From a virus: a DNA stretch of 36,219 nucleotides. The translations under genes and the position numbers were made by a program. The stretch is taken from positions 1 through 36,219 of the IMG/VR virus record IMGVR_UViG_3300042691_004525; one strand, given 5' to 3'. The stretch's first letter is position 1; the number at the start of each line of letters is the position of its first letter. This document shows, in pieces, positions 28,867 to 31,140 of this stretch. The notes under the pieces are model-generated. The model was not told the DNA's origin and did no database searches. It was given only the letters and a program-made list of their open reading frames with translations.

Positions 28867-30105
28867 TTATTGACAAATATAACTATAATCTTTCTTAAAT
28901 ATATTAACAGTATACTTCTTTTTTGCTTTGACTGCTTTGTATATTTTGTCCTCAATGCCACCAATGCTGAACAACCAATAGACCTTATTGAACTTTCTAC
29001 TCATAGTAGTCATACGATCACGAGCCTGCCAATAGCTAGTAGCACTAAAGTCAATATTATAGAACACCACATAGTCAGCATTTTTTAAGGATATACCCTC
29101 ACGACCTGATACTATTTGTAAGGCTATAAACTGAAAATCCTCATTGTCAAACTTATCAAGCTCTGTAGTTAAGCTATCACCAAGTACCTGCTTTAGTGCG
29201 CTTAGTTCTTCTTTGAACTTGTAGAATATGCCTATCTTTGATGTCGCAAATTGCGACTTGATAAACTCAGCTTTTGTCGTGTCAATAACCATACTATTTC
29301 CACTCTCAAACTTGACAGTACCACTCCACAACTGATGCAGTTTTTGCATTAGTTTAACTGGAGTGTCTGCCAATATAACTTCATCCTTGCCTTCAACTAC
29401 CAAATCTTTTTCGAGCTTCTTAACAATCATCTTTGTCTTATTACACATTTCAATGTGTATTACTTCTTCCTCAATCTCAGTAGAGAATCCTGCCTGTTGC
29501 TGTGTGAATGTAATTACATAAGGTGCAATAGCAGCCATTATCTTCAACTCATTTCCTTTTGAGTAGTCATTAACTAAAAACCCATTAATCTTTTTCTGAA
29601 ACTTGTTGACATAATCATCAGCCCATCTGTAGAAGTTCGCATAATGTTTAAACGGACTATAGATCGAAACCCAAAACTGGTGGTATACTTGGCTGTATGA
29701 CTCTGGTGTCATTGTACCTGACAAGAATATCATTGGCACATCACAAAACATATTTCTAAAAGTCTTTGTTGCTAGCCCTGGTTTTGGGAATGCTCCGAAT
29801 CTATGGTGCTCGTCATGGATTACTAAGTCGTAGTCTGTGTCTTCCAATTTATGCATTGACTCATCATTTATAACTGTCAATTCAAATTCATAGCCGAAGT
29901 TATTATAGTCATTTTGGATTGATGATATAGCTTTCTTTTTAGTTAAGAATAGAACTCGTTTAGCTCCATATAGTTTAGCTGTTTCTAAAGCTGTTAAGGT
30001 CTTACCAACGCGTACGGCCAATGATAGGTATACTATTTTTTTATCTTTAAGTATATTAACAGCTCTATTAGCTAAGTCAACTTGATAACTTCTTAATTCC
30101 AACAT
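28867..30105 (-). CDS. SF2 (SNF2-like) DNA helicase
   Basis: A 412-residue ATP-dependent helicase or translocase. Motif I (Walker A) is AVRVGKT at 30-36, motif II is DEHH at 98-101, motif III is SGTMTPE at 129-135, motif V is GREGISLKNAD and motif VI is YWQARDRMTTMSR near the C-terminus. The Walker A and QxxxR motifs resemble the minimal SNF2-like helicases of phages that pair with VRR-NUC nucleases; the nuclease gene follows at once. Likely role: remodelling recombination or replication forks. The ATG at 30105 lies within the last codons of the upstream HNH gene (29-base overlap). Confidence 0.9.
   Translation of the reverse strand: MLELRSYQVDLANRAVNILKDKKIVYLSLAVRVGKTLTALETAKLYGAKRVLFLTKKKAISSIQNDYNNFGYEFELTVINDESMHKLEDTDYDLVIHDEHHRFGAFPKPGLATKTFRNMFCDVPMIFLSGTMTPESYSQVYHQFWVSIYSPFKHYANFYRWADDYVNKFQKKINGFLVNDYSKGNELKIMAAIAPYVITFTQQQAGFSTEIEEEVIHIEMCNKTKMIVKKLEKDLVVEGKDEVILADTPVKLMQKLHQLWSGTVKFESGNSMVIDTTKAEFIKSQFATSKIGIFYKFKEELSALKQVLGDSLTTELDKFDNEDFQFIALQIVSGREGISLKNADYVVFYNIDFSATSYWQARDRMTTMSRKFNKVYWLFSIGGIEDKIYKAVKAKKKYTVNIFKKDYSYICQ
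28874..28881 (-). promoter_or_regulatory. Promoter-like box before VRR-NUC gene
   Basis: TATATTTG on the minus strand, at the very end of the helicase gene, 8 bases before the proposed TTG start. The -33 box is weak. If active it would give a nearly leaderless VRR-NUC mRNA. Confidence 0.4.
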
Positions 30106-30634
30106 AATATTTTTTATTAATTACATTTAATATAGTTCCTTGAGAAACATTATACCTTATCATAAATTCCTCTACATTTCCTTTATTTACTTTATTTACA
30201 CCTTTAATACAATTTTTTAAAATATCTTCAATTGCTTCATTTGACAACTTTCTATTTGCATTTATTTTTCCTAAAATATCATAAGAATGTCTTTCGTTTT
30301 CTGAATGAGTACACCATTCAAGATTTTTAATATTATTATTGCTAGGATTTCCATCTATATGATTAACACATTTTTTATTATGTGGGTTATCTATAAAATA
30401 TTGAGCTACTAGTCTATGAACTTGAAATCTTTTAGGTTTGTTGTTTTTGCATAAAGTAACCCTTTTGTAGCTCCCTTTTCCATTACATCTATTTGATTCT
30501 AATTTTAAATACTTTTCTTTATATTTAGTTATCATTCCATTAGAATATACTATAGTACATTCATTACTTTTTACTCTACCATAGTTTGAAATTTCATAAT
30601 TCTCAAAACCATCGATTGCCTTCCATATTTCCAT
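30077..30634 (-). CDS. NUMOD4-HNH homing endonuclease
   Basis: A 185-residue free-standing homing endonuclease. NUMOD4 at about 1-30 (EIWKAIDGFENYEISNYGRV) binds DNA; HNH at about 75-110 (VHRLVAQYF, VNHIDGNPSNNNIKNLEWC) contains the catalytic His and Asn; residues about 130-180 look like an IENR/NUMOD1-type helix-turn-helix (EEFMIRYNVSQGTILNVI). These enzymes nick or cut DNA to spread their own gene. The gene is visibly more AT-rich than the helicase it precedes, and its last ten codons overlap the helicase start, as expected for an insertion. The ATG follows the U-run of a terminator hairpin directly, so expression requires read-through. Confidence 0.92.
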   Translation of the reverse strand: MEIWKAIDGFENYEISNYGRVKSNECTIVYSNGMITKYKEKYLKLESNRCNGKGSYKRVTLCKNNKPKRFQVHRLVAQYFIDNPHNKKCVNHIDGNPSNNNIKNLEWCTHSENERHSYDILGKINANRKLSNEAIEDILKNCIKGVNKVNKGNVEEFMIRYNVSQGTILNVINKKYYVGIKKLSS

Positions 30635-30722
30635 AAAACAAAAATGCTATTAGGTTTCGAGGTTGCGGTCTCTACTCCCTAATAGCAATTATTATAATTT
30701 CTACTTGTGTCCGCAACTACAC
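30635..30722 (-). ncRNA. Structured leader or small RNA with kissing loops and terminator
   Basis: On the minus strand, hairpin 1 (GTGT 30722-30719 with ACAC 30710-30707) has the 8-base loop AGTTGCGG. Hairpin 2 has a 10-bp stem, TGCTATTAGG (30687-30678) with CCTAATAGCA (30654-30645), then an internal loop, GAG/CTC and the 8-base loop ACCGCAAC. GTTGCGG (30717-30711) and CCGCAAC (30668-30662) are perfect complements, so the loops can kiss while both stems stay formed. Hairpin 2 is followed by TTTTTGTTTT and directly by the ATG of the HNH gene, so it is also an intrinsic terminator. A consensus promoter lies just upstream. I know no named RNA family with this sequence. Confidence 0.72.
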
Positions 30723-30726
30723 GTCA

Positions 30727-30758
30727 CAAATATAAAAAATACTTTTATTAAAAACAAA
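30727..30758 (-). promoter_or_regulatory. Consensus Bacteroidota promoter for the structured RNA
   Basis: On the minus strand, TTTG (30758-30755), exactly 20 bases, then TATATTTG (30734-30727). This is one of the two best promoter matches in the window. Transcription would begin near 30722, at the foot of hairpin 1. Confidence 0.85.
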
Positions 30759-31140
30759 CATTGCAGTTTATTATTGAAACACGTCTTTTAAATGAGATTG
30801 ACTCCAAAGGAAAATCATCTATGGATATATCTTCAGTACATACGACTATTATTTTTGGATGTATATAAAATATATCCTTTCCTTGTTTCTCTATGGCGAT
30901 TCCTTCATACGTATCACTAATTAGTTCTCCTATGTCAGAGGCGTATTTAAATCCATTTATTATTACTAATTCAGTATTTTGACTACAATGGCGCGAAAAG
31001 CCAACTAACATTTTTCTACGTTTTCTTCTATACATGTAATAATCACAATCAATAAATACAACATTATCTTTGTTGTATGAAGCAACTATCTCTGTAATTT
31101 TATCTTCTGAATTACCTATCAATACTGTTATTTTGTCCAT
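30748..31140 (-). CDS. Hypothetical protein, possibly a degenerate P-loop ATPase
   Basis: A 130-residue protein with alternating strands and helices: KITVLIGNSEDKI at the N-terminus (where a P-loop would be, but without GK-S/T), NVVFIDCDYYMYRRKRRKML, ELVIINGF (Walker B-like position) and KIIVVCTED (sensor-1-like position), then SFKRRVSI (arginine-finger-like). The order recalls a shrunken AAA+/SF3 ATPase domain lacking a functional P-loop. It is next to the SF3 primase-helicase, so a structural subunit derived from that fold is possible, but this is inference. It overlaps the upstream gene by 29 bases. Confidence 0.65.
   Translation of the reverse strand: MDKITVLIGNSEDKITEIVASYNKDNVVFIDCDYYMYRRKRRKMLVGFSRHCSQNTELVIINGFKYASDIGELISDTYEGIAIEKQGKDIFYIHPKIIVVCTEDISIDDFPLESISFKRRVSIINCNVCF

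Follow-up and report, generated by a model that had tools for sequence, protein, structure and literature searches.

In phage lambda, the Q-controlled pR'-6S RNA-tR' module consists of a promoter, a short terminated leader RNA and the genes behind it, whose expression needs read-through. In phage HK022, operon transcripts begin with two hairpins, the put RNA, which influences termination by acting on RNA polymerase, so that the enzyme is able to pass later terminators. Loops of 7-8 nt are known to form kissing helices in the purine riboswitch (L2-L3) and between RNAI and RNAII of ColE1. Hairpins that control translation have been described for homing endonucleases of T4-like phages (I-TevI, segB and Aeh1 mobE), and in seg43(25) of Aeromonas phage 25 a hairpin lies directly 5' of the RBS; mobE and segF also carry intrinsic terminators (reviewed in PMC2988022).

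Here we describe a structured leader RNA on the minus strand of a virus sequence of 36,219 nt (positions 1 to 36,219 of IMG/VR record IMGVR_UViG_3300042691_004525; this whole stretch is referred to as the window). The virus probably infects Bacteroidota, as judged from its promoter type, gene content and relatives.

Architecture of the leader RNA

The original prediction had described a promoter, two hairpins and a U-run leading into an ATG, and every one of these elements was found on the minus strand (Table 1), the two promoter elements being separated by a 20-nt spacer. The 7-base loop cores, each with an A in front, proved exactly complementary, as had been claimed, and the isolated GUUGCGG/CCGCAAC duplex is worth about -10 kcal/mol. 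The 10-bp stem attributed to hairpin 2 is present, and the description is amended by the asymmetric AGUA/GAA internal loop and the 3-bp inner stem that lie above it; this internal loop (GAGUA/GAAA in the window) is loop-E/S-turn-like, and the apical loop, ACCGCAAC, has 8 nt, an A followed by CCGCAAC. When folded, the element strand gave z = -3.6, with none of 200 shuffles equally stable, and the reverse (plus) strand gave z = -0.6 and no notable structure.

Table 1. Positions of the leader RNA, its promoter and the adjoining genes in the window
Feature	Position	Strand	Basis or remark
-33 promoter element TTTG	30755..30758	-	sequence; doubles as the 5' edge of the inserted cassette
-7 promoter box TATATTTG, consensus TAnnTTTG	30727..30734	-	sequence; consensus and location at -12 to -5 as given in PMC9723704
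Putative transcription start, at the base that opens hairpin 1	30722	-	inferred from box position
Hairpin 1, GUGU-AGUUGCGG-ACAC	30707..30722	-	8-nt loop, A+GUUGCGG
Loop-1 kissing core GUUGCGG	30711..30717	-	exactly complementary to loop 2
AU-rich linker	30688..30706	-	sequence
Hairpin 2, terminator-like	30645..30687	-	10-bp lower stem and 3-bp inner stem
Top of hairpin 2, with the apical loop and, around GAG/CUC, the internal loop GAGUA/GAAA	30655..30677	-	sequence
Loop-2 kissing core CCGCAAC	30662..30668	-	sequence
U-run UUUUUGUUUU	30635..30644	-	sequence
NUMOD4 + HNH_3 homing endonuclease ORF, 185 aa	30077..30634	-	Pfam PF07463 E=3.6e-13, PF13392 E=1.1e-10
ResIII/Helicase_C helicase ORF	28867..30105	-	upstream junction is the insertion site (empty sites in sister phages)

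The U-run of the window is short (5 U, then a break) and is followed immediately by the ATG of the endonuclease at 30634-30632; a stable hairpin with a U-run directly after it is what defines an intrinsic transcription terminator at the sequence level, and hairpin 2 has this form. The base of hairpin 2 lies at about -11/-12 from the AUG (which is 10 nt beyond), so that -12 and the positions upstream are structured and the AUG itself is unburied.

Relatives and covariation

Protein relatives of the HNH endonuclease led to two loci (L123 and L124) with an identical layout and entirely different loop sequences (AGTGGTCG/ACGACCAC and GGTCGTAG/ACTACGAC), and patterns taken from these loci retrieved six, later 103, viral contigs. 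The perfect 7-nt loop complement is kept in 76 of 78 distinct copies. Conservation of the box, of CTTTTGA and of parts of the kissing core reflects how the copies were selected, since the retrieval pattern prescribed these elements; the stems, three kissing positions and the U-run were left free, and the U-run follows hairpin 2 in essentially all copies although it was not required. Across 61 copies, 99.2% of the structure cells pair and both-sided changes occur in 17 of 22 pairs (hairpin 1, 4/4; kiss, 5/7; lower stem, 7/7; inner stem, 1/4), with a covariation score of 0.406 as against 0.099 in column shuffles (0/500) and at most 0.034 when the partners were slid. Compensatory changes, whose absence among relatives had been named beforehand as grounds for giving up the original prediction, are therefore present in most pairs.

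A covariance model (R1), trained without the window and without the pseudoknot, retrieved the window at 47.1 bits (E=1.4e-7), as its sole strong match there, the next having E=0.48. Since the kiss is not part of R1, the loop complement is independent of this score. Two features by which the R1 family is recognized are present in the window: the TAnnTTTG box with a hairpin of 4-6 bp and an 8-nt loop behind it (30734-30707), and the exact 7-nt complement in the apical loop of hairpin 2 (GUUGCGG/CCGCAAC). The window lacks the tandem G-A internal loop (NGAU/UGAN) that marks the main subclass and has GAGUA/GAAA instead; it belongs, as a divergent member of the family, to a second subclass whose internal loop is AGUA/GAA. 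This loop is common to five further loci (L374, L385, L410, L406 and L373) and to the Flavobacterium columnare phage FCV-1, and the kissing cores of the subclass (GUUGCGG, GUUCAGG, GUGCAG and GUAGUGC) each have an exact complement.

A geometry-only, sequence-blind finder gave 81 distinct matches on both strands of 5.05 Mb of phage DNA and none in shuffled sequence; the TAnnTTTG box lies just 5' in 80 of the 81, about 65 of which had been retrieved by a pattern that requires the box. A generic GTTGCGG-N-CCGCAAC pattern returned mostly unrelated palindromes from viral contigs, with only L083 recognized as a true member. In host genomes, the main pattern had four matches in 84,980, one of them genuine, on a 32-kb contig of a Bacteroidetes MAG. 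Members occur in the isolated phages mumin, hattifnatt, FCV-1, phi19:3 and elemoA, Flavobacterium phages among them; the same leader has the pairing sequences GTGGAACG/CGTTCCAC in mumin9-1 and GTGAGACG/CGTCTCAC in hattifnatt9-1, a compensatory change from one isolated phage to the other. The kissing sequences within one genome may also differ from each other: 13 two-copy contigs, compared by hand, share none, but a cluster-based permutation gave P=0.29, partly because near-duplicate contigs were merged, and the difference is suggestive only. One copy (L149:5228-5330) is decayed, with a broken hairpin-1 stem and a lost ATG (GGTTTTTCATTTTTAG), and retains hairpin 2 and the kissing core.

A scan of Rfam 15 (4227 families) gave no gathering-score match for the window or for the kissing leaders in 13 loci, in line with the earlier statement that no described family with this arrangement is known, and the two-hairpin kissing leader was not found described in the literature searched. 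Below threshold, RF03535 (TEG147 of S. aureus) matched 30641-30690 of the window (E=0.011, 24.9 bits against a cut-off of 56.1). These leaders form a large RNA family of Bacteroidota phages that is apparently undescribed.

Start-codon spacing and context

The -7 box is known to occupy -12 to -5 (PMC9723704), which predicts a transcription start at or 1 nt before hairpin 1; in 57 of 75 copies, offset 5 from the box is where the 4-bp stem of this hairpin begins. At the other end, the distance from hairpin to AUG is 9-12 nt (mode 11) before unrelated gene families, a constancy that argues for a role in cis better than for a free small RNA. The AUG is closer in the endonuclease copies (mostly 10-12 vs 15-19 nt, P=3e-17, relatedness uncorrected), and A at -3 is found in 15 of 63 of them (24%) as against 48 of 77 copies before other genes (62%; P=7e-6, relatedness likewise uncorrected); the start codon of the window has U at -3. 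Initiation in F. johnsoniae is promoted by an A at -3 and at -6 and by a lack of structure around the start (PMC6847099), and by these rules the short spacing and the rarity of A(-3) make the endonuclease leaders look tuned low.

Genes behind the leader

Among the genes 3' of the leader are those for NUMOD4-HNH, GIY-YIG/NUMOD3 and T5orf172 proteins and for other HNH proteins, for BT4734-like primase, ResIII helicase and DUF6291 proteins and for a 79-aa protein (MNTISVQGF) of unassigned family; small early genes occur there as well. The original prediction of a structured RNA with its own promoter, a kiss and a terminator-like end thus stands, and its tie to HNH and to this helicase was too narrow: unrelated endonuclease families and replication genes carry the same leader, which rules out an HNH-specific RNA. 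Nor is the leader a general trait of NUMOD4-HNH genes, since the upstream gene adjoins or runs into those inspected in Enterococcus, Staphylococcus, Streptococcus and Lactococcus phages, and the Bacillus and Vibrio loci have an upstream gap with no recognizable kissing leader; the 70-nt gap of L440 showed no pairing at all, and those of L434 and L442 gave pairings that may or may not lie in hairpin loops.

Weaker R1 matches in the same contigs are related designs with the same promoter, in which the 5' partner, either the loop of a hairpin or just a bare tail, pairs over 6-10 nt with the apical loop of a hairpin that resembles a terminator and stands before an early gene. A finder for this wider group gave 169 distinct matches and none in shuffles, although a few with low scores, from unrelated contigs, may have arisen by chance; in this superfamily, hairpin 1 is replaced by other 5'-end elements.

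Some further observations concern the neighbourhood of these RNAs. A 78-79-aa protein (MNTISVQGFKIDINHFDTQISK...) is encoded directly behind the leader at L139:5047-5283 and in about a dozen further contigs, and had no Pfam match in the one copy scanned. Four contigs (L241, L248, L258 and L301) have intact kissing RNAs with no start codon or ORF at the usual distance and a TATAACG...-type sequence instead, which in L258 and L301 is an inverted repeat, attC-like in appearance. At L128:2880-3001, a NUMOD4-HNH gene is preceded by a terminator-like hairpin, the loop of which has its complement in a 12-nt 5' segment, TGTCGAGATAAG; this contig has a TATAAT promoter and a Shine-Dalgarno-like leader and is a single case of an analogous design outside the TAnnTTTG phages.

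Mobility with the endonuclease

The nearest phage (contig L122) is 100% identical to the window over 30582-30836 and about 99% over the HNH gene, and identity drops to roughly 75-90% a kilobase or two off, a profile that would be expected of homing with co-conversion. Neither an HNH relative nor the RNA is present in 70 of 80 related-helicase loci. In the HNH-free sister phages L355 and L359, the match to window positions 30827-30759 continues straight into the helicase start, which places the insertion from 30758 to about 30105-30118 and makes it comprise promoter, RNA and HNH; the RNA was inserted jointly with the HNH gene. In mumin and hattifnatt, RNA and HNH occupy a site where the HNH-less sister lillamy has a ParB gene; at this spot, 5' of the ParB gene, lillamy9-1 carries an Rfam DUF805b RNA (L349:6662-6696; RF02914, E=1.1e-11). 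In L123 and L133 the element splits the helicase gene, leaving a truncated helicase 5' end upstream of the RNA (L123:2741-3001, MELRKYQIRLAKDAAQILQTKHIVYLAMEVR...), and a complete helicase ORF restarts after HNH; the cassette has entered the helicase gene, for which a new 5' end was provided.

Possible function of the leader

The promoter match, the structure, the covariation, the joint mobility and the spacing and context of the AUG are all observed in sequence. The explanation that we favour, with slightly better than even confidence, is that the RNA serves a mobile endonuclease cassette as its promoter-proximal attenuator leader, limiting the gene behind it by means of a terminator whose loop is kissed by the 5' hairpin. 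Transcription would start at the base of hairpin 1, which would fold at once; the apical loop of the emerging hairpin 2 would then kiss the loop of hairpin 1, with the U-run next, where most transcripts would be expected to end, yielding a compact RNA some 85 nt long, the kiss possibly changing the efficiency of termination. The endonuclease would be made from read-through transcripts only, and translation, with the AUG jammed against the hairpin and in poor context, would be a second brake; read-through may be raised at some stage or by a phage or host factor acting in trans, expression staying low before this release. Intrinsic termination is suggested by the U-run after hairpin 2. Since this design also precedes primase and helicase genes, some read-through must take place, whether through leakage or through a regulator. 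Against an attenuator speak the polarity of terminators on the downstream genes of co-directional operons unless relieved, no antiterminator having been identified, as well as the shortness of the U-run in the window and the intact copies without a nearby start codon.

The leader could act mainly on mRNA stability or translation instead, a 5'-terminal hairpin locked to the AUG-adjacent one protecting the mRNA and metering initiation, and the U-run being a mere AU-rich initiation region. Hairpin 1 does start at about +2, a hairpin at -12 with U at -3 should lower initiation, and T4-like homing endonucleases offer a precedent for the control of translation by hairpins (PMC2988022); however, the T-run right after a GC-rich stem resembles an intrinsic terminator and is more conserved than initiation alone needs, and an A(-3) would be cheap to gain were translation all that mattered, so that we consider this unlikely, though deserving of some weight. 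Own promoter and terminator, a 5' end flush with the hairpin, a compact fold and intact copies with no adjacent ORF would also suit a stable, abundant small RNA acting in trans, for instance as a decoy or antisense regulator, and merely lying upstream of the endonuclease. This we hold to be rather improbable in view of the narrow range (9-12 nt) of distances to the start codons of unrelated genes, the joint insertion with the endonuclease, and the two loops, which consume each other and vary among copies and thus offer no constant seed.

Intramolecular kissing loops beside a terminator recall purine-riboswitch architecture, and the internal loop is conserved, as might suit a ligand-sensing riboswitch with hairpin 2 as its expression platform; this is very unlikely, as invariant unpaired bases are few, the internal loop differs by subclass (UGAU/UGAN vs AGUA/GAA) and the genes behind the leader have no metabolite in common. 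Travelling with the HNH gene would be expected of an operator or guide RNA of the endonuclease itself, serving autoregulation or RNA-guided cutting, but the loops are paired to each other and the leader also precedes HNH, GIY-YIG and T5orf172 genes, primases, helicases and small genes, which leaves no single partner family; this idea is hardly credible and was rejected.

Beyond the attenuator at this locus, it is conceivable, although we regard it as doubtful, that Bacteroidota phages have a genome-wide layer of control after initiation, in which 5' ends, as hairpin loops or bare tails, would pair with the apical loops of early intrinsic terminators at many operon starts, each leader having a pairing sequence of its own, one factor or signal would switch all together, and homing endonucleases would have captured the leader into their mobile cassette. 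Little is known of gene control in Bacteroidota phages, and the leaders form a widespread RNA family, absent from Rfam and from the literature searched, in phages of a phylum very abundant in water and gut. The success of a selfish element may be tied to an RNA leader with which it travels, and the pairing of 5' ends with terminator loops suggests a control logic common to parasites and core replication genes; members in isolated phages make these proposals testable now.

Comparison with known systems

As in T4-like homing endonucleases, RNA structure and a private promoter would hold a phage endonuclease low. The T4-like hairpins, however, are single, have no kissing partner, and sequester the SD or form on upstream transcripts only, whereas here two kissing hairpins stand between promoter and AUG in leaders with no visible SD, and the module serves core genes as well as several endonuclease families. 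The order of promoter, short terminated leader and genes recalls pR'-6S RNA-tR' of lambda, from which the present design differs in that no antiterminator has been identified, several modules occur per genome and kissing loops are the defining feature. HK022 put shares the two 5'-end hairpins on phage operon transcripts, a likeness of layout, and here the second hairpin is itself terminator-like. Unlike the purine riboswitch and ColE1 RNAI/RNAII, the leader has no P1 or ligand core, and its kiss joins a 5' hairpin to the loop of a terminator within one molecule. TEG147 (RF03535) resembles it in a hairpin with a GAGUAG/CGAAA internal loop and a U-run, the match covering hairpin 2 alone and lying far below the gathering score. 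What is familiar in this leader is its presumed purpose; the novelty lies in the architecture of two hairpins that kiss, in the use of this design by several gene families and in its movement together with the endonuclease gene.
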